Shown here: in pieces, positions 45,410 to 54,190 of the stretch
Position numbering within the stretch: the stretch's first letter is position 1
How the letters are laid out: each line of letters starts with the position of its first letter
Assembly (NCBI RefSeq): GCF_023501975.1
Contig: NZ_JAMFLH010000007.1
Span: 124,001 to 188,000 of the forward strand
Reading direction: 5' to 3'
Source: Altererythrobacter sp. KTW20L
Lineage (GTDB): Bacteria > Pseudomonadota > Alphaproteobacteria > Sphingomonadales > Sphingomonadaceae
DNA: 64,000 nt
The notes under the pieces: model-generated
Seen by the model: the letters and a program-made list of their open reading frames with translations, nothing else
Database searches by the model: none
What the model was told of the DNA's origin: nothing
Made by a program: the position numbers and the translations under genes

Positions 45410-48400
45410 CTAGTGAAAGTCACGAGAGCGCGGAATGATCCGGGCATCGCGCGGATGGCCCCGCAAAGTGGGCGGCAACTGGTCGATCATGTCGCGCGGG
45501 CGGATGGTCTCCCCGTTCTGACCCAGAGTTCCGGCATGGTCGGCGCGGGCCAATGGCGCCTGCAGCAGGTCGTCCGACAGCAGGTGGAGCTGGTGGGTCG
45601 CATCGGTCATGTGGTGGGCGATGACGTGGATCACCTCGTCATCGTACTCCACCCGGCCGCGCACTTCCATCAGCCGCGATCCCATCACCACCTTGCGCTG
45701 GCGGTCCTTCAGGTCGGGCCAGACGACGAGGTTGATGACCCCGGTCTCGTCCTCCAGCGTGATGAAGCACACGCCCTTGGCGCTGCCGGGCCGCTGGCGG
45801 ATCAGCACCACGCCGGCCACCTGCACCATCGAGCGGAACTTGCGGTCGCGCAGGTCGCAGGCGCGCACGAAGCCGCGTTCGCCCAGGCTGGCGCGCAGGA
45901 AGGCGAGCGGGTGGGCCTTCAGCGACAGGCGCGTGGTCTGGTAATCGGCCACCACTTCTTCGCTCAGCGGCATCTGCGGCAGGATAGCGCGGTGTTTCTC
46001 CGCCCCCTCGTCGCGCGCTTCTGCATGGGCGAACAGCGGCAGGTCGGGCGCACCCACCAGGCTGCGGGCATCCCACAGTGCCTGCCTGCGGGAAAGGTTG
46101 AGCGATCCGAAGGCATCCGCGCTGGCAAGCCGCTCGACATGGGCCGGGCCAATCCGCGCCCGCGCCCGCAGGTCCGCCACATCGGCAAAAGCCCCGCCCT
46201 CCACGCGCGCAGCGACGATGGCGGCGGCGACATGTTCGGGCAGGCCATCAACCTGCCGCAGGCCAAGGCGCAAGGCCATTTTCTCCCTCTCCCCTTCAGG
46301 GGAGGGGGTCGGGGGGTGGGGGACTGCAGGCGCAGCGTCTGCCGCCCCCACACCCAACCCTCTCCCCTGAAGGGGAGAGGGCTCTTTCTCCAAAGTACAA
46401 TCCCAGTCCGAACAGTTCACATCCACCGGCAGCACCGGCACCCCATGCTCGCGCGCATCACGCACGATCTGCGCCGGGGCATAGAACCCCATCGGCTGCG
46501 AATTGAGCAGCGCGGCGCCAAAAGCTGCGGGAAAGTGGCATTTCAGCCAGCTCGATACATAGACGAGGTGCGCGAAGCTGGCGGCGTGGCTTTCGGGAAA
46601 GCCGTATTCGCCAAAGCCCCTGATCTGGTTGAAGCAGCGCTGGGCGAAATCGCGGTCATATCCGCGCGCCACCATGCGTTCGACCATCATGTCCTGCAAT
46701 TCGTCCACCATTCCGCGGCTGCGGAACGTGGCCATGGCCTTGCGCAGGCGGTTCGCTTCCAACCCGGAGAACTTCGCTGCATCCAGCGCGATCTTCATCG
46801 CCTGCTCCTGGAAGATCGGCACGCCCAGCGTCCGGCCGAGGATGCTGGTCAACTCGTCGGGCGGGCCATGTTCCGGCCCCGGCGCGGGGATGACGACCTG
46901 CTCCTCGCCCCGGCGGCGCTTGAGGTAGGGGTGGACCATGTCGCCCTGGATCGGGCCGGGCCGCACGATGGCCACCTGGATGACGAGGTCATAGAACTCG
47001 CGCGGGCGCAGGCGGGGCAACATGTTCATCTGCGCGCGGCTTTCCACCTGGAACACGCCGAGCGAATCGCCCTTGCGCAGCATGGCGTAGGTTTCCGGAT
47101 CCTCGCGCGGGACGCTCGCCAGCGTCAGGTCGCGGCCATGGTGTGCGCCCAGCAAGTCGAGGCATTTGCGGATGCAGGTGAGCATGCCCAGCGCCAGCAC
47201 ATCGACCTTGAGGATGCCCAGCGTGTCGATGTCGTCCTTGTCCCATTCGATGAAGGTCCGGTCGGGCATGGCCCCGTTGCCGATCGGCACGGTCTCGGTC
47301 AGCAGGCTTTCGGTCAGGATGAAACCGCCGACGTGCTGGCCCAGGTGGCGCGGCATGCCGATCATCTGTTCGGTCAGCTTGAGCACGCGCCTGAGGTGCG
47401 GATCGGACAGGTCCATGCCGGTTTCGGCCACGTGCTTCACGCCGATCTCGTGCCCGTGCCCGCCCCAGACAGTGCGCGACAGCGCGGCGGTGACATCTTC
47501 CGACAGGCCCATCGCCTTGCCCACCTGGCGGATCGCCATGCGCGGACGGTAATGGATCACCGTGGCGCAGAGCCCGGCGCGGTGGCGACCATACTTGGCA
47601 TAGATATGCTGGATCACCTCCTCGCGCCGCTCATGCTCGAAATCGACGTCGATATCGGGCGGCTCCTTGCGTTCTTCGGAGATGAAGCGGTCGAACAGCA
47701 ACTGGTGCTTGGCCGGATCCACGCTGGTAATGCCCAGCACATAGCAGACCGCCGAATTGGCCGCAGAGCCCCGCCCCTGGCACAGGATCGGGGGGTCCTG
47801 CGCGCGGGCGAAATCGACGATATCCTTGATGGTGAGGAAGTATCGCGCCAGTTCCAGCTTGGCGATCAAGGCCAGCTCACGTTCCAGCACATCCTCAACA
47901 GATTGCGGCAAGCCATTGGGATAGCGCCATTGTGCCCCCTCCCATGTCTGCTGCTCAAGGTATTCCTGCGGGTCCATGCCATCGGGGTAGATCTCGCGCG
48001 GGTATTCATAGCGCAACTCCTCCAGGCTGAACCGGCAGGCATCGGCCACCTTGCGGGCGGCAGTGATGGCGTGGGGCCAGCGGGCGAACAGCTGCTGCAT
48101 CTGTTCGGGGCTTTTGAGGTGCCGCTCGGCATTGGCGTGGAGCAGGCGGCCGGCGGCGGCAACCGTGGTCTTGTGGCGGATCGCGGTCATCACGTCCTGC
48201 AAGGGGCGGCGGTCGGGCGCGTGGTAATGCACGTCGTTGGTTGCCAGGATCGTGCAGCCATTGGCCCGCGCCAGGGCATCCAATCGCTCGATCCGCGCTA
48301 CGTCGTCCCCGCGATAGAGGTAGCTGGCGGCGATGTGCCGCAGGGTGGGAAGCTGACGGGTCAGATGCGGCAGAAGGTCGGCCAGATCAGCGACAATCCT

Positions 48401-49024
48401 TCTCCCCTCCCGCTTGCGGGAGGGGCCGGGGGTGGGCCCGGTCCCATCGGCGTTCGCCGCATTCCCACCCCTAACCCCTCCCGCAAGCGGGAGGGGAATG
48501 ACGTTGTCCTCCACCGCTACGGTGAATTCGTGGGACAAATCGTCCGACGGCAACAGGATAAGCTGCACGCCCTCGCTATGCTCCGCCAGCATGGCGAGGC
48601 TGATGTCGCAGGCTCCCTTGTCCTGCCATTCGCCATCCAGCGTGCCCATGCGCCCGGCCGAGATCAGGCGGCACAGGCGGCCATAGGCGGCGCGGTCGGT
48701 CGGATAGGCGAGGAAGACGAGCCCTTCTGCCAGTTCCAACCGGCAGCCGATTACCGGGCGCAATTTCAGCGTCCGCGCTTCGGCATGGAGGCGGACCACC
48801 CCGGCAAAGGAATTGGCATCGGCAATGCCAATCGCATCATAGCCCAACGCGCGGGCCTGCAGCACCAGGTCCACCGCATCGGACGCACCGCGCAGGAACG
48901 AAAAGCAGCTCGCCACGCCCAGCTCCACGAAGGGCGCCGGCGGTGGCGGCGCAATCCCTTCCGGGCCGAGTTCGTGGTCCAGCGCGATCGTGCGGCGCGG
49001 CATGAGGAGGTCGTTTTCAGGCAT
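45410..49024 (-). CDS. dnaE2: Error-prone DNA polymerase DnaE2
   Basis: The C-family translesion polymerase that works with ImuA and ImuB in SOS mutagenesis. The 1204-residue protein has an N-terminal PHP domain (FVELGVASCFSFLRGASDA), catalytic aspartates in PPDIDVDFEHERR at about residue 453-458, and a C-terminal OB-fold (VQVAGVVLIRQRPGSAKG). It is longer than usual because two palindromic elements lie in frame, at about residues 176-207 and 881-913, encoding Pro/Gly/Arg-rich peptides. Both remain open with no frameshift, so the polymerase is probably functional. It starts 3 bases after the UdgX gene. Confidence 0.96.
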   Translation of the reverse strand: MPENDLLMPRRTIALDHELGPEGIAPPPPAPFVELGVASCFSFLRGASDAVDLVLQARALGYDAIGIADANSFAGVVRLHAEARTLKLRPVIGCRLELAEGLVFLAYPTDRAAYGRLCRLISAGRMGTLDGEWQDKGACDISLAMLAEHSEGVQLILLPSDDLSHEFTVAVEDNVIPLPLAGGVRGGNAANADGTGPTPGPSRKREGRRIVADLADLLPHLTRQLPTLRHIAASYLYRGDDVARIERLDALARANGCTILATNDVHYHAPDRRPLQDVMTAIRHKTTVAAAGRLLHANAERHLKSPEQMQQLFARWPHAITAARKVADACRFSLEELRYEYPREIYPDGMDPQEYLEQQTWEGAQWRYPNGLPQSVEDVLERELALIAKLELARYFLTIKDIVDFARAQDPPILCQGRGSAANSAVCYVLGITSVDPAKHQLLFDRFISEERKEPPDIDVDFEHERREEVIQHIYAKYGRHRAGLCATVIHYRPRMAIRQVGKAMGLSEDVTAALSRTVWGGHGHEIGVKHVAETGMDLSDPHLRRVLKLTEQMIGMPRHLGQHVGGFILTESLLTETVPIGNGAMPDRTFIEWDKDDIDTLGILKVDVLALGMLTCIRKCLDLLGAHHGRDLTLASVPREDPETYAMLRKGDSLGVFQVESRAQMNMLPRLRPREFYDLVIQVAIVRPGPIQGDMVHPYLKRRRGEEQVVIPAPGPEHGPPDELTSILGRTLGVPIFQEQAMKIALDAAKFSGLEANRLRKAMATFRSRGMVDELQDMMVERMVARGYDRDFAQRCFNQIRGFGEYGFPESHAASFAHLVYVSSWLKCHFPAAFGAALLNSQPMGFYAPAQIVRDAREHGVPVLPVDVNCSDWDCTLEKEPSPLQGRGLGVGAADAAPAVPHPPTPSPEGEREKMALRLGLRQVDGLPEHVAAAIVAARVEGGAFADVADLRARARIGPAHVERLASADAFGSLNLSRRQALWDARSLVGAPDLPLFAHAEARDEGAEKHRAILPQMPLSEEVVADYQTTRLSLKAHPLAFLRASLGERGFVRACDLRDRKFRSMVQVAGVVLIRQRPGSAKGVCFITLEDETGVINLVVWPDLKDRQRKVVMGSRLMEVRGRVEYDDEVIHVIAHHMTDATHQLHLLSDDLLQAPLARADHAGTLGQNGETIRPRDMIDQLPPTLRGHPRDARIIPRSRDFH
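46285..46381. repeat. GC-rich palindromic element, copy C (inside dnaE2)
   Basis: A 97-base element bounded by perfect 20-base inverted repeats, CCCTCTCCCCTTCAGGGGAG at the left (46285-46304) and its complement at 46362-46381, each arm itself hairpin-forming. It is read in frame by dnaE2 and inserts a Pro/Gly/Glu-rich peptide between SDWDCTLEKE and ALRLGLRQ, segments that are normally close together in DnaE2. Confidence 0.9.
48404..48496. repeat. GC-rich palindromic element, copy D (inside dnaE2)
   Basis: A 93-base element (31 codons) with perfect 22-base inverted ends at 48404-48425 and 48475-48496, each of the form CCCCTCCCGC-TT/AA-GCGGGAGGGG. It is read in frame and adds a peptide beginning PLPLAGGVRGG and ending PSRKREG within the PHP-domain region, about residues 176-207. 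Confidence 0.9.
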
Positions 49025-49027
49025 ATG

Positions 49028-50488
49028 CTAACGCCCGGCTAGCTCCGCCAGCCTGCCCGCCACGGCCGCAAGGTCGGCATCGAACAGCCGCTCCTGTTCC
49101 TCGCGCCCTGCTCCGTCGAGCCGGAGCAGGTACGAAGGATGCGCGGTGATCCACAACTCGCTGCCATCGCCCAGCCCATGCGCCCGCCCCCGCTCGCGCG
49201 AGATGGACACGGTGCGGCCCAGCATGGAGCGCGCCGCGCTGGCCCCCAGTGCCAGCACCAGTTTCGGCTTTACCAGCGCCCGCTCATCCTCGATCCACCA
49301 GCGGCAGGTGTCGATTTCCTTGGCGGTGGGGGACTGGTGGAGCCGCCGCTTTCCCCTCATCACGAACTTGAAGTGCTTAACCCCGTTGGTGACATAGGTC
49401 GCCGCCCGGTCGATCCCGGCCTGTTCGAGGTGTTCATCCAGCAAGTGCCCGGCAGGACCAACGAAGGGCCTTCCGGCAAGGTCTTCCTGGTCGCCCGGCT
49501 GTTCGCCCACGATCATCAGATCCGCATCCTGCGGCCCCTCGCCCATCACGGCGCGGGTTTCGAGTTCGCCGATGGGGCAGCGGCGGCACATGTGGATCGC
49601 CTTGTCGATGGCGGACAGGCTGTCCGGGCGGTCTTCGGGGGCAATGGCTCCGGCATCGATCATGGTCGCCTCGCGGCCCTGCGCGCCTGCCACCAGGTCG
49701 GCAATCAGCGCGGTTTCGGGCATGTTCTTCCAGTACTTGCGCGGCATTTCCTTGAGCATGGCCCCGATCTTGAGCCGCGCGGGGTTGAAGATGGAGGCAT
49801 AGTAGCGCCGCCAGAGTTCCTCCATCGCATCGCCCGCCGGGGCATCGGCCTTCTGCGCGGGTGGCCCCTCGCACAATGCATCGCCATCCCAGTGGAGCGA
49901 GCCCTGCGGCGTCAGGATCGACCAGCGCATGTTGGCGAAGCGGCGCACGAAGAACCCGGCATTGGCGCGCAGGATATGATGCTCGGGCTCAAACCAGGCG
50001 ACGTAGTGCTCGGCGGCTTCCGGCCCCAGCGCATCGGCATCTGTCGGCACGAGGCGGAAGCGGACGAAGGCACGCATCTTGTGCATGTCGCGCCGCACCT
50101 GGCGGATGAATTCATCGAGGCGCCGCACATCGGCATCGGCCCGGTCTTCCAGTGCACGCGGATTGCCCTGCAAGCGCCACAGCAGGCGGTAGAGCAGGCC
50201 GAAGCGATCCGGGTCCGAATGGCACATTGCAGTCTGCGCCGCCTGGACGAAGGCCTTGCTGGCCCGCACGGCCCGCGCATCGGACGGCGGCGGGGAAAGG
50301 CGCGTGTCGCCAGACGCAAACAGACTGCCCGTCGCCCCGGGCTCGATCCAGGCGATCCTGTCGGGCGGCACATCGCACTGCACCAGCCCCCTCGCCCGCT
50401 CGCGCCAGAAGGCGAAGTCGTCCGCCTCGGGCAGTTGCACCGCATAGAACGCGCCGAGCCGCGGCTTCAGCTTGCCGCGGGTGGTCAT
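49028..50488 (-). CDS. UdgX-type uracil-DNA binding protein fused to DUF4130
   Basis: A 486-residue two-domain protein. The N-terminal half (to about 250) fits the DUF4130/TIGR03915 type, with no known activity. The C-terminal half is a family-4-like uracil-DNA glycosylase with GEQPGDQEDLAGRPFVGPAG (from about residue 325) and the R-loop RGKRRLHQSP near 381. In UdgX this KRRxHQ loop carries a His that bonds covalently to the sugar after uracil removal, so this enzyme is expected to crosslink to uracil DNA. Two CxxC-like and further cysteines (MCRRCPIGELETR) fit an iron-sulphur cluster. It overlaps the radical SAM gene by 4 bases and precedes dnaE2 by 3. Confidence 0.9.
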   Translation of the reverse strand: MTTRGKLKPRLGAFYAVQLPEADDFAFWRERARGLVQCDVPPDRIAWIEPGATGSLFASGDTRLSPPPSDARAVRASKAFVQAAQTAMCHSDPDRFGLLYRLLWRLQGNPRALEDRADADVRRLDEFIRQVRRDMHKMRAFVRFRLVPTDADALGPEAAEHYVAWFEPEHHILRANAGFFVRRFANMRWSILTPQGSLHWDGDALCEGPPAQKADAPAGDAMEELWRRYYASIFNPARLKIGAMLKEMPRKYWKNMPETALIADLVAGAQGREATMIDAGAIAPEDRPDSLSAIDKAIHMCRRCPIGELETRAVMGEGPQDADLMIVGEQPGDQEDLAGRPFVGPAGHLLDEHLEQAGIDRAATYVTNGVKHFKFVMRGKRRLHQSPTAKEIDTCRWWIEDERALVKPKLVLALGASAARSMLGRTVSISRERGRAHGLGDGSELWITAHPSYLLRLDGAGREEQERLFDADLAAVAGRLAELAGR

Positions 50489-51729
50489 GCCGCGAACAGC
50501 TCCAGCTGCTCCTGCTTTGGCGCCAGGAGGCTGCGCAGATCGGCCCCGTCGGTCAGCATAGTGGGCCGCCAGTCGCAGGTGATGATGAACGGGCGGATCT
50601 TCGCCACCGAAGTGGTCAGCCTGCCCACATCGTCGAGTCTGAGCGTGCGATGGCGGCGGGTGGCGAGGATCTGGCCCACCGCGCGCGTCCCCAACCCCGG
50701 CACGCGCAGCAACATCTCGCGCGAGCTGCGGTTCACATCCACGGGAAAACGCTCACGAAACTTCAGCGCCCAAGCGAGCTTGGGATCGATATCGAGCGGC
50801 AGGTTGCCCGCCGCATCGGTCGCCTCGACTACCTCGTGCGGGGCAAAGCCATAGAACCGCATCAGCCAGTCCGACTGGTACAACCGGTGCTCGCGGATCA
50901 GCGGCGGGCGCTTCAGCGGCAGCACGGCGCTGGCATCGGGGATCGGGCTGAAGGCGGAATAATAGACCCGGCGCAGGCGAAACCGGCCATAAAGCTGGCT
51001 CGCCTTGCCGACGATATCGGCATCGCTGGCGCTGTCCGCCCCCACGATCATCTGGGTGGACTGTCCGGCAGGGGCGAATTTCGGCGCGTGGCGGAAGTGC
51101 TTCTTCCCGTCGCGCGCCTCGTCGATCGATGCCTTCATGCCGCCCATTGCGCCTTCGATCATGCCGGCGTTCTTGTCGGGTGCCAGGCGGGTGAGCCCGG
51201 CCACGGTGGGCAATTCGACATTGATCGATAGGCGGTCGGCCAGGAGCCCTGCGCGGTGGATCAGGTCGGGCGAGGCTTCGGGAATGGTCTTGAGGTGAAT
51301 GTAACCACGGAAATCGTTTTCATCCCGCAGGATGCGCGCCACTTCTACCATCTGTTCCATCGTATGGTCGGCGTTCTTGACGATGCCGGAGGAGAGGAAC
51401 AGCCCTTCGATATAGTTACGCCGATAGAAGCTCAGCGTCAGGTCCGCCACTTCCTGCGGGGTGAACCTGGCACGGACCACGTTCGAGCTCTTGCGATTGA
51501 CGCAATAATGGCAATCGAAAATGCAGTGGTTGGTCAACAGGATCTTGAGTAGCGAGATGCAGCGGCCATCGGGCGCATAGGAATGGCAGATGCCCATTCC
51601 TTCGGTCGAGCCAACACCCTTCCCGCCGCTGGAATTGCGCTTGGAGGTGCCCGACGAGGCGCAGGAGGCATCGTATTTCGCCGCATCGGCGAGGATGGCG
51701 AGCTTTTCCAAGGTGCTGGGTCGGGACAT
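50485..51729 (-). CDS. Radical SAM protein, putative DNA modification/repair (TIGR03916 type)
   Basis: A 414-residue radical SAM enzyme that usually accompanies DUF4130/UdgX genes; its substrate is unknown. The cluster motif is Cys69-x3-Cys73-x2-Cys76 in CIFDCHYCVNRKS. A C-terminal helix-hairpin-helix (LLRVPGLGTRAVGQILATRR, about residues 335-370) suggests DNA binding. The protein ends QEQLELFAA; QLELF matches the sliding-clamp binding pentapeptide pattern QL(S/D)LF closely. The start MSRPSTLEKLAILADAAKYD fits the family, and lies only 2 bases after a LexA box, with no room for a ribosome site. imuB ends 48 bases upstream. Confidence 0.9.
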   Translation of the reverse strand: MSRPSTLEKLAILADAAKYDASCASSGTSKRNSSGGKGVGSTEGMGICHSYAPDGRCISLLKILLTNHCIFDCHYCVNRKSSNVVRARFTPQEVADLTLSFYRRNYIEGLFLSSGIVKNADHTMEQMVEVARILRDENDFRGYIHLKTIPEASPDLIHRAGLLADRLSINVELPTVAGLTRLAPDKNAGMIEGAMGGMKASIDEARDGKKHFRHAPKFAPAGQSTQMIVGADSASDADIVGKASQLYGRFRLRRVYYSAFSPIPDASAVLPLKRPPLIREHRLYQSDWLMRFYGFAPHEVVEATDAAGNLPLDIDPKLAWALKFRERFPVDVNRSSREMLLRVPGLGTRAVGQILATRRHRTLRLDDVGRLTTSVAKIRPFIITCDWRPTMLTDGADLRSLLAPKQEQLELFAA

Positions 51730-51731
51730 TT

Positions 51732-51746
51732 GTTCTATGTATGTTC
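51732..51746 (-). promoter_or_regulatory. LexA (SOS) box before the radical SAM gene
   Basis: GTTC-TATGTAT-GTTC on the plus strand is an exact alphaproteobacterial LexA box (GTTC-N7-GTTC). It lies in the 48-base gap after imuB and ends 2 bases before the radical SAM ATG. A promoter overlapping it would make a leaderless or almost leaderless mRNA for radical SAM-UdgX-dnaE2. Confidence 0.85.
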
Positions 51747-51777
51747 TACCGCCGGATTCGCCTAGCGCTTTGTCGGC

Positions 51778-53430
51778 TCAGGCAAATAATCCCTGCAAGA
51801 ACCAGTCGGGTATGCCGCCATTGCGATCGGTGCCGCGCCCGTCGCCTGCAAGGCCGGCGCGGAAGATCCAGTAGCGGCGGCCCTCACCATCCTCGATTCG
51901 GTAATAGTCGCGCAGGCGGACATGGCCCTTCTCGCGCCACCATTCGGGGGCGATCCTCTCGGGCCCTTCCACCCGCGCCACCTCATGCACGCCGCCCCGC
52001 CAGCTGAACCGCCGAGGATGGCCGTCCGGGCTGGCATAGAGCACGGCGATCTTCTCAGGACTATCCAGTAGTTTCAGCGGCCTGGCATGGAAATCGAGCA
52101 TATGCTGTGAAGCGGGTTCTGGCTCCAGCGCGCTTGCCCAACCTTGCGCGCGTTCGGGCACGTGGCTGCCACGCGGGACCGGACGGCGCACGGCCGCTGC
52201 CCCCAGCCTGACCGAAATACGGTCGATACAGGCGGCGAGCGAGGTGCCGTGCTGTTCGGCAGCAGCCTCAAGGTCCGCCTGGGCCAGGGCCAGCGGTTCG
52301 GCCCAGCTGGCACTGAGGCGCGCCATCTCGATGCCGAAACCCGCCTCCACATCGTCGAGCCGGGCGGCGAACAGGCGGCAGATGTGGGCTGCATCGCGGG
52401 TGGCGGCGGCCAGTTCCAGCCGGCGCAGCACCACCTCGCCATCGACCCGCCACAGCCCCAGTTCGAGCCGCCGTGCCCCGCTGCCCCGCGCCTCCAGTTC
52501 GCGCACCAGGTCTGCCGCAAGGTCGGCCAGTACCTGATCCAGCAGCGGGCGGTGACGGATCGGCTCCATCAGGCGGCGCTGCACCAGCGGCATGGCCACG
52601 GCGAGGACCGGCAGCAGCGGCTCGGGCACGCGGCCCGCCAATTGGTCGAGCCGGATCAGGGGATTGGCGGCGGGCGAGCGGCGGTTGCGGAAGCGGCGCT
52701 GCACTGCGTCGCGGCCCAGTTCCGCCATGTCGCCCACCCGCTTGAGGCCGAGGCGGCGCAGCACCAGCAGCACATCTGCATCAAGCCGCAATGACGCCAC
52801 CGGCAGGCCGAACAATGCGGCGGCTACGTCTGCCCCCGGCGGCAGGATCGCTGCGGGCGGGCCATAGTGTGCCAGCGCCCAGGCCGCGCCTGCCGTGGGG
52901 GCGATGGCGACGCGGGCGGCGAGGCCCTGCGCGGCCAGCCTGTCCTGCACATCGGCTAGCAGCCGTTCCTCCCCGCCAAACAGGTGGGCCACGGCGCTGA
53001 CATCGACCAGCAGGCCATCGGGCGCATCCATCGCCGACCACGGCCCCCAGCGCTGGGCCCACAGGGCCAGCCGTTCGAGGAAGGCAAGGTCGCCCGCCGG
53101 ATCGCTCGGCACCACCTGCAATTGCGGGCACAGGGTGCGCGCATCGGCCAGCATCATGCCGGGCGCGGCACCTGCATCTTGCCCGGCAGTATTGGCGGCA
53201 TCGATCCGCGGGCCGTGCGCGGTTTCGGTGATGAGCGCCAGCGGACCTTCTTCAAGCCCCCTCTTCTTCAGAAGAGGGGGTTGGGGGTGGTGGCGGGATG
53301 CAGGCGACGTGGCAGGCGGGCACCACCCCCCGGCCCCCTCCTCTGAAGAAGAGGGGGAGAAAGAGCGCCTGTCTCTGTTCTCAGCCTGCCGCCAGCGATC
53401 CAGCGCCAGCGACATGCACCAGATCGCCAT
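51778..53430 (-). CDS. imuB: ImuB, inactive Y-family polymerase subunit of the mutasome
   Basis: Hub of the ImuA-ImuB-DnaE2 translesion complex; it normally lacks polymerase activity and tethers DnaE2 to the clamp. With the ATG at 53430 (MAIWCMSLALDRWR) the protein is 550 residues; an ATG at 53514 is possible. The Y-family core is seen in LLVDVSAVAHLFGGEE and LAARVAIAPTAGAAWALA, and the C-terminus has the ImuB-specific RLRDYYRIEDGEGRRYWIFR. A QHMLDF string (QxxLxF) near residue 440 might bind the clamp. A palindromic element is read in frame at about residues 24-58. The start overlaps imuA by 50 bases. Confidence 0.9.
   Translation of the reverse strand: MAIWCMSLALDRWRQAENRDRRSFSPSSSEEGAGGWCPPATSPASRHHPQPPLLKKRGLEEGPLALITETAHGPRIDAANTAGQDAGAAPGMMLADARTLCPQLQVVPSDPAGDLAFLERLALWAQRWGPWSAMDAPDGLLVDVSAVAHLFGGEERLLADVQDRLAAQGLAARVAIAPTAGAAWALAHYGPPAAILPPGADVAAALFGLPVASLRLDADVLLVLRRLGLKRVGDMAELGRDAVQRRFRNRRSPAANPLIRLDQLAGRVPEPLLPVLAVAMPLVQRRLMEPIRHRPLLDQVLADLAADLVRELEARGSGARRLELGLWRVDGEVVLRRLELAAATRDAAHICRLFAARLDDVEAGFGIEMARLSASWAEPLALAQADLEAAAEQHGTSLAACIDRISVRLGAAAVRRPVPRGSHVPERAQGWASALEPEPASQHMLDFHARPLKLLDSPEKIAVLYASPDGHPRRFSWRGGVHEVARVEGPERIAPEWWREKGHVRLRDYYRIEDGEGRRYWIFRAGLAGDGRGTDRNGGIPDWFLQGLFA
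53257..53357. repeat. GC-rich palindromic element, copy E (inside imuB)
   Basis: A 101-base element with 24-base inverted ends at 53257-53280 and 53334-53357 that differ at one position; the arms read CCCCCTCTTCTTCAG and are self-complementary. It lies in frame in imuB and separates DRWRQAENRDRR from GPLALI, which are adjacent in typical ImuB proteins. The arm sequence differs from copies A, C and D although the plan is the same. Confidence 0.88.
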
Positions 53431-54160
53431 GATCCGGCGAGCGGTCCGGCGAGAGGTCTGTGGAGGCGTCTGGCCGCTCGGCGACACGTTCGGCAACAAG
53501 GGCCTTTCGGTCATCGCGCAGGATCCATTCGGATGGGGGGTGCATGCGGGCGCGGAACAGGTCGGCGTGCCAGCTTGGCAGGCCGGGGGCGGCGGGGTTC
53601 CAGCAGCCGCGCGGCGACGGGGCGGAGCGCACTTCCCAGCGCATGCGGGCCGAGCCAAGGTCGCGCTTGGCATCGTGACGCACCAGGAACAGCGGAATGC
53701 CGTGCTTTTCCGCCGCCAGGCTGAGCCGGCGCGAGGCGGTGAGACCCAGTTCGCGCGGGTTGCCGTGGATCTCGCCGATCACACAGGCAAGGTCGCGGCA
53801 GCGCATGCCTTCCTCCAGCGCGAACAGCGCATCGGCGGCACCTTTCGCCGCGACATGGATCACCCGGTGGCGCAATTCCGGTGGCAGGCCGGGGCGGTAG
53901 GGCCGCCCGGTCTTCTTGCGCGAGGCTTCGTCCTGCACCCACAACAGCGGCCTTTCCTCCAGCCTGTCGTCACCACTGTTGCGCAGGTCATCCAGCGCCA
54001 GCGCGAGCGCGCAGGCCACGCCGCCCGCTTCGTGCGAGGGGGCGAAAATCTCGCTGTGCAGCACCCGGCCCTGCCGGCGCGCCAGCCCCGGCCGCCAGCG
54101 TGACGCCGCATTGCTGTCGGGCACCAGCTGGGATGCCCTTGGAAGAGAAGAAAGGTCCAT
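53381..54160 (-). CDS. imuA: ImuA, RecA-like mutasome protein
   Basis: First gene of the SOS mutagenesis cassette, 259 residues. ImuA is a distant RecA/SulA-type protein needed for DnaE2-dependent mutagenesis, and acts on RecA and ImuB. Family segments include GRVLHSEIFAPSHEAGGVACALALAL, LLWVQDEASRKKTGRPY and ASRRLSLAAEKHGIPLFLVRHDA. No classical Walker A is visible. A GGAG site lies 8 bases before the ATG and a LexA box 16 bases before it. Confidence 0.9.
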   Translation of the reverse strand: MDLSSLPRASQLVPDSNAASRWRPGLARRQGRVLHSEIFAPSHEAGGVACALALALDDLRNSGDDRLEERPLLWVQDEASRKKTGRPYRPGLPPELRHRVIHVAAKGAADALFALEEGMRCRDLACVIGEIHGNPRELGLTASRRLSLAAEKHGIPLFLVRHDAKRDLGSARMRWEVRSAPSPRGCWNPAAPGLPSWHADLFRARMHPPSEWILRDDRKALVAERVAERPDASTDLSPDRSPDHGDLVHVAGAGSLAAG

Positions 54161-54175
54161 GCGAATCGCTCCGAT

Positions 54176-54190
54176 GTTCTATTTATGTTC
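54176..54190 (-). promoter_or_regulatory. LexA (SOS) box before imuA
   Basis: GTTC-TATTTAT-GTTC on the plus strand is an exact alphaproteobacterial LexA box. On the minus strand TTGCCA followed after 17 bases by CATAAA would put the -10 within the box, the usual arrangement for LexA repression. The divergent gene at 54293 starts about 100 bases to the other side. Confidence 0.9.

Follow-up and report, generated by a model that had tools for sequence, protein, structure and literature searches.

A damage-switched unit in the window (the whole stretch of 64,000 nucleotides that was analysed) is predicted to make a TIGR03916 radical SAM protein (rSAM), a uracil-trapping UdgX and the polymerase DnaE2 together, and a clamp-like tail on rSAM hints that the three work at one spot on damaged DNA. 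At roughly even odds, we propose that this is an SOS module for lesion processing, tethered to the clamp and in this locus coupled to DnaE2. The locus comprises five genes on the minus strand, namely imuA (259 aa; 53381..54160), imuB (550 aa; 51778..53430), rSAM (414 aa; 50485..51729), a DUF4130-UdgX fusion gene (486 aa; 49028..50488) and dnaE2 (1204 aa; 45410..49024). The first two overlap by 50 bases and are followed by a gap of 48 bases; rSAM overlaps the fusion gene by 4 bases (ATGA), and 3 bases separate the latter from dnaE2. Two LexA boxes were recognised by pattern match: box 1 (GAACATAAATAGAAC; 54176..54190, minus strand) upstream of imuA, and box 2 (GAACATACATAGAAC; 51732..51746, minus strand), which ends 2 bases before the rSAM ATG and is further marked by its conserved position. 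An earlier sequence-only reading of this DNA had described the strand, order, spacing and both boxes, and these were confirmed to the base. It had also called the locus one operon; because box 2 stands before rSAM, two SOS units, box1-imuA-imuB and box2-rSAM-DUF4130::UdgX-dnaE2, are a better description. As the last gene of the second unit, dnaE2 appears to hang on the rSAM promoter, a point which that reading had missed. No terminator was found between the imuAB and rSAM units, and read-through from imuAB is therefore possible. Judged from the open-licence literature, the box2-rSAM-udgX-dnaE2 unit is apparently unreported.

The LexA operator pattern is a matter of general knowledge, and by itself a match to it is weak evidence: the window holds 4 sites against 1.2 expected (3 of 100 shuffles reach 4), and the genome 82 against 54 for a reversed control pattern. 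The conserved position upstream of rSAM is stronger. Whether rSAM is linked to dnaE2 or not, a box precedes it in 47/47 loci (chance about 0.2) and in 73/80 loci from the best 80 of 594 relatives (chance about 0.4), the latter a set that is mostly alphaproteobacterial because only the best 80 were kept. In other classes of the phylum CTGTN8ACAG lies at most 250 bp from rSAM in 16 of 20 loci, a count that stands without a chance rate. Box 1 likewise recurs upstream of imuA, in 20 linked loci and 22 further loci of the clade defined below. The predicted box 2 is thus a conserved operator-like promoter site, as expected of a LexA regulon member, and the strong conservation of its position in sequence supports the LexA control implied earlier. 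The other LexA-pattern sites of the genome are only mildly helpful: nine stretches of the 82 were read, picked mostly for A/T-rich spacers, and neither recA nor lexA was seen at them. By our own reading of the translations, one of the nine sites precedes a ribonucleotide reductase and another a RadA-like gene.

Family models identify most of the encoded proteins. DnaE2 scores 1386 bits against NF004225 (cut-off 939), in keeping with its place in a mutasome, and ImuB, of the putative inactive Y-family polymerase type, matches IMS, IMS_C and DUF6504 above their cut-offs (scanned as 551 aa, one codon extra). Upstream of these Y-family domains lies a gene in the position of imuA, whose name rests on that position together with a sub-threshold match to NF033429 (25 bits, cut-off 150). 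The rSAM protein reaches 567 bits with TIGR03916 (cut-off 343.5) and has the CX3CX2C motif of the family, C69-x3-C73-x2-C76 (51502..51525, minus strand), invariant in 36/36 sequences and forming the core radical SAM cluster motif; its score with Pfam Radical_SAM, 25.4 bits, lies below the cut-off of 29.5. Equally invariant (36/36) are C23, C48 with H49, and C57 (51559..51663, minus strand), a possible auxiliary Fe-S site by their conservation, although most of the C23-C57 stretch is of low confidence in the structure model; these three N-terminal cysteines presumably echo the auxiliary cluster of lipoyl synthase. Despite the sub-cut-off Pfam score the core barrel of the model is like those of HydE (Z 17.9, rmsd 2.6, 215 aligned), lipoyl synthase (Z 17.8, rmsd 3.3, 222 aligned) and biotin synthase, the closest solved structures listed. 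Their matches barely cover rSAM after residue 314, and the clamp-type tail is a further addition in rSAM. The C-terminal part gives weak helix-hairpin-helix matches to ComEA and RuvA (E 0.03-0.5). Relatives of rSAM are also carried by plasmids (158 records) and by two contigs of a viral collection. The open-licence literature yielded no description of a substrate for either TIGR03916 or DUF4130.

The sequence-only reading, whose gene list stands, had overlooked that rSAM ends in a putative sliding-clamp-type peptide, QLELF (50494..50508, minus strand, by pattern match). The strict pentapeptide (QLELF or QLSLF) forms the C-terminus of 155 of 178 distinct rSAM proteins, in part closely related, as against 2 of the 4985 blocks of 14 residues from elsewhere in these proteins and a mean of 1.1 (maximum 4) in shuffled tails; with the hexapeptide included the count is 170/178 (shuffled mean 6.8, maximum 13). 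In the structure model the tail has a pLDDT below 50, so that a QLxLF-type peptide sits in a flexible tail, as in beta-clamp clients. The same type of docking is used by replicative and translesion polymerases, and the rule for such motifs is general knowledge, but short motifs can mislead. Indeed, the clamp pattern alone is no proof, because its strict form matches somewhere in 50 of 52 DnaE2 proteins; we take these matches to be a conserved polymerase segment, their positions being assumed. D/ELPLF, with 47 occurrences in 51 DnaE2, about 0.8 of the way along the protein, may be the clamp motif of DnaE2 itself. No C-terminal clamp pattern was found in UdgX (133 proteins), DUF4130 (157), DnaE2 (52), ImuB (72) or ImuA (55). 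One of 16 stand-alone UdgX proteins does carry a clamp-type peptide: its gene stands between imuB and dnaE2 (locus L288, in a genome that lacks rSAM), and the protein starts MMARTQLSLGF, with a clamp-type hexapeptide. The rSAM tail is apparently unreported, as judged from the open-licence literature, and offers an inexpensive and decisive handle on where rSAM works.

In the fusion protein residues 22-259 (49712..50425, minus strand) form the DUF4130/TIGR03915 domain (214 bits, cut-off 112) and residues 261-476 (49061..49708, minus strand) the UdgX domain (TIGR03914, 312 bits, cut-off 190). The AlphaFold model of DUF4130 has a mean pLDDT of 80, and Foldseek gave no PDB match below E 0.001. In a second structural comparison the best 20 rows were a PAP phosphatase (Z 7.8, rmsd 4.6, 180 aligned), 14 RecJ or RecJ-Cdc45 entries and 5 replisome chains, which we take to be Cdc45; all 20 matches would then be DHH-type. 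Since a Z of 7.8 falls in the common range of the tool, this fold is a lead only. The UdgX domain aligns with solved UdgX chains at E about 1e-43 over 179 residues, and alignment to 6iod shows GEQPG, KRRLH and HPSYLLR intact, corresponding to motif A (GEQPG), the KRRxH loop and motif B (HPSxLLR) as defined in the passages seen of PMC10359453. The KRRLH loop (49337..49351, minus strand), aligned to the solved chains, holds the cross-linking histidine, and cross-linking is thus predicted for the protein of the window. According to the same passages UdgX captures uracil instead of turning it over, and its physiological role is largely unknown.

The conservation of the locus was traced in a clade of Sphingomonadaceae/Erythrobacteraceae genomes whose listed ImuB is at least 64% identical. 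Genes were scored as linked if they shared a contig within 20 kb, so that contig breaks count as unlinked; the base was 150 rSAM genomes and 145 ImuB genomes among the matches listed. On these terms rSAM is linked to imuB, on the same strand and in the same order, in 49 of the 51 clade genomes with both genes; of the other two, rSAM is near a contig end in G312 and far off in G474. The order imuA-imuB-box-rSAM-DUF4130-UdgX-dnaE2 holds in 19/19 linked loci that reach far enough, and also in L111, the 20th linked locus (L084) being cut by a contig break after rSAM. Among relatives the distance between the box1 and box2 units spans 0.06-6.3 kb, whereas that between UdgX and dnaE2 does not exceed about 135 bp; where gapped loci were read, imuB and rSAM are separated by seemingly unrelated genes, mostly on the opposite strand. 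Linkage by chance is rejected, given the 49/51 clade genomes listed and the recurrence of UdgX near imu/dnaE2 elsewhere.

Clade loci without rSAM at imuB bear on the history of the cassette. There are 22, made up of G474 and 21 of the 22 genomes with ImuB but no rSAM place listed (G345, with an rSAM fragment, was left out). In 12 of the 22 imuA, imuB and dnaE2 are contiguous, in 6 box 2 precedes dnaE2 with rSAM and UdgX absent, and in 3 box2-UdgX-dnaE2 remains without rSAM. Since these loci keep imuAB-dnaE2, the mutasome does not need the cassette. In the tree, from which one short DnaE2 (L091, 155 aa) was removed by the length filter, the box-only and UdgX-only loci form no clusters of their own, and the simplest reading, with several forks weak, is of basal lineages with contiguous imuA-imuB-dnaE2, then gain of the cassette and then several losses. 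This suggests that the cassette was lost repeatedly within the clade.

Among the genomes listed the five-gene arrangement is confined to this one clade. Linkage of rSAM to imuB was 0/45, among the matches listed, in genomes of the same family with a more distant ImuB, and rSAM was found beside imuAB-dnaE2 in 0/15 class-sample loci outside the family (stretches of 14-15 kb) and in 0/20 loci of other classes, within the stretch fetched. A divergent case in Henriciella is the sole out-of-clade linkage among the best 80 of 594 relatives, and within the class sample the window and one further genome (G110) are the only places with imuB and dnaE2 close to rSAM. With the imuB-rSAM spacing also free, the five genes can be rejected as one conserved unit, and outside the clade the majority of the rSAM operons examined are found apart from imuAB-dnaE2, contrary to the earlier picture of a single unit. 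The association nevertheless extends beyond close relatives, because the linkage is kept across the clade and UdgX has been placed independently in imu/dnaE2 clusters elsewhere. Thus 4 of 16 stand-alone UdgX genes lie in such clusters (0.03 expected), in three other families and without rSAM; for the other 12 no such neighbour appears within the fetched stretch, some of the 16 stretches being short or ending at contig edges. DnaE2 occurs in 25/26 UdgX genomes against 98/215 genomes without UdgX, with kinship ignored, the exception (G046, with rSAM and UdgX) being a member of the class sample. By contrast with this separable UdgX, which is the part that recurs with dnaE2, rSAM and DUF4130 belong together: both occur in 17/17 rSAM genomes of the class sample, and one extra DUF4130 genome carries an rSAM fragment. 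Six rSAM loci have no UDG.

These distributions bear directly on whether the proteins share more than a promoter. An operon inserted once between imuB and dnaE2 and kept for its promoter, its products repairing separate lesions, would account for the gain and losses in the tree, for the unlinked rSAM operons outside the clade and for box 2 remaining alone before dnaE2. We consider such mere co-regulation possible but rather unlikely, as the independent placing of UdgX in three other families, its co-occurrence with DnaE2 and the clamp-type rSAM tail all suggest a shared site of action and speak against it. The five proteins may act together, as the earlier reading inferred. In the clamp-tethered module that we favor, DNA damage would cause LexA to leave box 2, and a leaderless or near-leaderless message would yield rSAM, DUF4130-UdgX and DnaE2 together. 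rSAM would dock on the beta clamp by its flexible C-terminal QL(E/S)LF tail and, where a fork has stalled or a single-strand gap is left, would act with DUF4130 on a damaged base through radical chemistry. The DUF4130-fused UdgX would excise uracil there and remain covalently bound to the abasic site, protecting it from nicking, while the gap would be filled by DnaE2, which would share the clamp with ImuA and ImuB; the whole would form a lesion-processing arm located where error-prone synthesis takes place. Outside the clade, most rSAM genomes examined encode the SOS module away from the mutasome; in the clade it would have been inserted before dnaE2, and hence would set the DnaE2 supply. More tentatively, and at clearly less than even odds, rSAM-DUF4130-UdgX could belong to the DnaE2 mutasome as an arm that has so far escaped notice, with rSAM as a clamp client processing a base lesion by radical chemistry and UdgX capping uracil or abasic sites within the same gap, so that a single clamp would serve both DnaE2 synthesis and lesion handling. 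If the module is real, SOS mutagenesis in bacteria extends to the processing of bases where the polymerase works, and this would bear on how mutation spectra are set under stress. The natural losses, which divide the module between rSAM with DUF4130 on one side and UdgX, the companion of dnaE2, on the other, are a guide to its genetic dissection.

An SOS base-excision clean-up, acting after the mutasome and uncoupled from it, in which a UDG counters misincorporated bases and rSAM reverses a photoproduct, appears improbable. Roles of this kind are proposed in the passages seen of PMC8565304 and PMC3765255, the conserved LexA box agrees with them, and a UDG beyond house-keeping repair would fit since three further UDG-superfamily genes are present in the genome. 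Yet spore photoproduct lyase, which may still rank lower, is not among the structural matches listed for rSAM, and the KRRLH loop together with uracil capture (PMC10359453, in the part seen) argues that UdgX is no ordinary clean-up UDG. An anti-phage or modification system, in which rSAM-DUF4130 would add a base modification or take one away while UdgX acted on foreign uracil-DNA, is very improbable: the NCBIfam name of TIGR03916, 'DNA modification/repair', and the plasmid and viral-collection relatives agree with it, but PADLOC models match none of DUF4130-UdgX, rSAM and ImuB, and the LexA box and clamp-type tail fit damage tolerance better.

Several known systems share parts of this locus. 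The Mycobacterium smegmatis UdgX (solved chains 6ail, 6io9 and others), as described in the passages seen of PMC10359453, shares GEQPG, the cross-linking histidine of KRRxH and HPSxLLR, and differs in that the UdgX of the window has an N-terminal DUF4130 and sits behind rSAM in an SOS unit. The ImuA-ImuB-DnaE2 cassette of PMC12926913 shares imuA, imuB, dnaE2 and the LexA box before imuA; in the part seen it is without the second LexA box and rSAM-DUF4130-UdgX insert of the window, and 'radical', 'uracil' and 'UDG' are absent from its main text. In the relevant passages of PMC3765255, DUF4130 is named with a radical SAM protein and a UDG in the SRAP/ImuB-C gene network, with a guess of thymine modification; there the radical SAM protein is called SplB-like, whereas our models rank the HydE, lipoyl synthase and biotin synthase folds first. 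SOS control of an rSAM-UDG pair is already in print: the passages seen of PMC8565304 report SOS regulation of a COG1573-COG4277 (UDG-rSAM) operon in Bacteroidetes, with Alphaproteobacteria and Verrucomicrobia cited. By name this operon has the same two families as the window, COG4277 being TIGR03916 on our reading, and the same LexA control. Those passages mention neither a clamp-type tail nor a joining to dnaE2, whereas the unit in the window would also transcribe dnaE2.

The natural unit at this locus consists of the second LexA box (box2), the TIGR03916 radical SAM gene (rSAM), the DUF4130::UdgX fusion gene and dnaE2. What is new here is this box2 unit bearing dnaE2, the separability of UdgX from rSAM-DUF4130, the recurrence of UdgX in other mutasome clusters and, as predicted from sequence, a clamp-type tail on rSAM. 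Re-reading of the coordinates confirmed exactly the positions that the sequence-only reading had given for all five genes and both LexA boxes. In the window imuA and imuB overlap by 50 bases, imuB and rSAM are spaced by 48 bases that include box2, the rSAM end and the UdgX start share an ATGA, and UdgX is followed by dnaE2 after 3 bases; the tight junctions from rSAM through UdgX to dnaE2 point to translational coupling of these three genes. Just 2 bases separate the end of box2 from the rSAM ATG that follows it, and in 36 of 47 loci the box starts 16–18 bases 5' of the extrapolated rSAM start (53 bases at most over all 47), a distance that suggests a leaderless rSAM message. As a separate observation, three long imperfect palindromes lie in frame within imuB (53257-53357) and dnaE2 (48403-48497 and 46285-46381), with arms of 31–37 bases that are 86–91% complementary. 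Insertions of 34, 21 and 11 residues at these sites are absent from most of eight aligned relatives, and the palindromes look like coding palindromic repeat elements.

The proposed linkage of these SOS genes proved to be real and clade-wide, with conserved LexA boxes. In the family sample of 249 genomes, rSAM was detected above cut-off in 159 and ImuB at an E-value of 1e-60 in 224. Among genomes listed with both genes, these were linked (same contig, within 20 kb) in 49 of 51 when ImuB was at least 64% identical to that of the window (the clade), and in 0 of 45 when it was less than 64% identical. In a survey of the best 80 of 594 rSAM relatives, ImuB preceded and DnaE2 followed rSAM in 12 loci, with named members including Alteraurantiacibacter, Croceicoccus, Novosphingobium and Qipengyuania; beyond these 12, two loci (L115, L118) run off the contig and in a third (L126) dnaE2 alone was seen. 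The rSAM pair lay beside imuB/dnaE2 in 0/15 class-sample loci outside the family, counting the fragment locus L043, and in 0/20 loci from other classes of the phylum, judged over the stretches read (14–15 kb for the class sample). In Henriciella pelagia (L186), imuA-imuB-dnaE2 is divergent from rSAM-DUF4130-UdgX, with about 330 bases between them, and the exact GAACN7GAAC was not found 5' of rSAM on the rSAM strand. Five class-sample genomes, three of them from one genus (the five being G022, G120, G190, G186 and G232), carry rSAM and DnaE2 non-adjacently on one contig, about 41–84 kb apart.

The idea that all five genes form a single conserved unit did not hold, since the imuB-rSAM distance varies within the clade. 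The imuB and rSAM matches are separated by 63 to 6305 bases in the 49 clade genomes, with strand and order constant, and in 15 gapped loci the intervening DNA holds seemingly unrelated genes, mostly on the opposite strand, which on our own reading of the translations are PilZ-like, alpha/beta hydrolase-like, TerC-like and carbonic-anhydrase-like. rSAM, DUF4130, UdgX and dnaE2 were contiguous in all 19 linked loci that reach far enough, with the DnaE2 match following that of UdgX after 4–135 bases, and also in a further clade locus, L111.

GAACN7GAAC was found 5' of rSAM in 47/47 and 73/80 loci, whether dnaE2-linked or not, against chance expectations of 0.2 and 0.4 respectively, the two sets sharing species. 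CTGTN8ACAG was found within 250 bases of rSAM in 16 of 20 loci from other classes, and both patterns are taken by us to be LexA operators. For Bacteroidetes, SOS control of the rSAM-UDG operon is reported in PMC8565304.

A natural dissection of the unit is offered by 22 clade loci chosen for having no rSAM listed beside imuB. The full gene order is present in one of these (L111), imuA-imuB-dnaE2 is contiguous and lacks box2 in 12, box2 lies within 165 bases of dnaE2 in 6, and 3 show box2-UdgX-dnaE2 with no rSAM or DUF4130 match; GEQPG, KRRLH and HPSYLLR are retained in each UdgX of this last group. A 41-row ImuB+DnaE2 tree, with several weak forks and a long outgroup branch, places the contiguous state basally, followed by gain of the cassette and then losses. 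The labels were clustered overall (12 changes, equally low in 0/200 shuffles), and box-only and UdgX-only loci, each taken by itself, showed no clustering on this tree. One cassette gain with several losses would be the simplest reading.

UdgX also joins mutasome clusters independently of rSAM. In the class sample (241 alphaproteobacterial genomes), UdgX above cut-off was represented by 27 genes in 26 genomes, 11 fused and 16 stand-alone, and imu/dnaE2 genes adjoin 4 of the 16, where about 0.03 would be expected by chance assuming a 4-Mb genome and 3.5 kb on each side. These four loci (L288-L291) span three family codes (f63, f85, f11), and the class-sample profile search gave no rSAM match in their genomes. 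L288 reads imuA-imuB-UdgX-dnaE2, with UdgX in the same slot between imuB and dnaE2 as in the window and an ATGA common to the UdgX stop and dnaE2 start; L289 reads UdgX-box-dnaE2; L290 and L291 read UdgX-imuB-dnaE2, with imuA detected between in L291 only. Motif A of UdgX is GETPG, not GEQPG, in L288 and L289. The L288 UdgX (L288:4645-5325), from a genome missing rSAM, has the N-terminus MMARTQLSLGF, a clamp-type hexapeptide seen in 1/16 stand-alone UdgX.

rSAM and DUF4130 belong together, and UdgX is separable from them. DUF4130 occurs in 18/241 alphaproteobacterial genomes, of which 17 carry rSAM above cut-off and the remaining one an rSAM fragment; at the 17 rSAM loci, UdgX is attached in 11, the window counted, and DUF4130 stands alone in 6. 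rSAM and DUF4130 are also found without a UDG on one Clostridia plasmid and one Acinetobacter plasmid; L147 departs from this pairing, having no DUF4130 match in 8 kb. DnaE2 was above cut-off in 25/26 UdgX genomes versus 98/215 without UdgX (Fisher 1.9e-7, kinship ignored), and in 16/17 rSAM genomes versus 107/224 others (1.2e-4). TIGR03916 relatives were further noted on 158 plasmid records (58 Phaeobacter, 15 Paracoccus) and on two contigs classed as viral (L307 and L308; 73% and 69% identity). With 659 bits, L239 in genome G548, which lies outside the class, scored highest for TIGR03916 in the phylum sample; its tail is GQLALF, and it has DUF4130 but no UDG match in its vicinity.

The rSAM proteins end in QLELF, QLSLF, QMALW and similar sequences, and QLxLF is the docking peptide for the bacterial sliding clamp. 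In the window this putative docking element is a flexible tail encoded at 50494-50508 on the minus strand, with pLDDT below 50 in the model. The strict pattern falls within the last 14 residues of 155/178 distinct rSAM proteins (shuffled tails: mean 1.1, maximum 4), and elsewhere in these proteins in 2/4985 blocks; it was absent from the C-termini of UdgX (0/133), DUF4130 (0/157), DnaE2 (0/52), ImuB (0/72) and ImuA (0/55). Either the pentapeptide or the hexapeptide is present in 170/178 (shuffled mean 6.8, maximum 13), and 5 of the 8 misses still have QxxLF. TIGR03916 proteins with QLELF-type tails come from Alphaproteobacteria, from further classes of the same phylum and, in one case, from a Clostridia plasmid, and no description of them was found in the open-licence literature.

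The window UdgX has every motif of the cross-linking class, and the host genome encodes three further UDG-superfamily genes. Many charged and aromatic positions of DUF4130 are invariant, and fold searches with its model gave no assignable fold. Structure comparison of the rSAM model showed a core resembling the HydE, lipoyl synthase and biotin synthase folds, with matches that barely cover the region beyond residue 314; for this C-terminal region, weak profile matches to ComEA and RuvA hint at a DNA-binding segment of helix-hairpin-helix type. Besides CX3CX2C, C23, C48 and C57 are invariant in 36/36 rSAM proteins, in a region where the model is mostly unreliable. Lipoyl synthase carries a second, cysteine-bound Fe-S cluster, and by analogy C23, C48 and C57 may bind a second cluster in rSAM.
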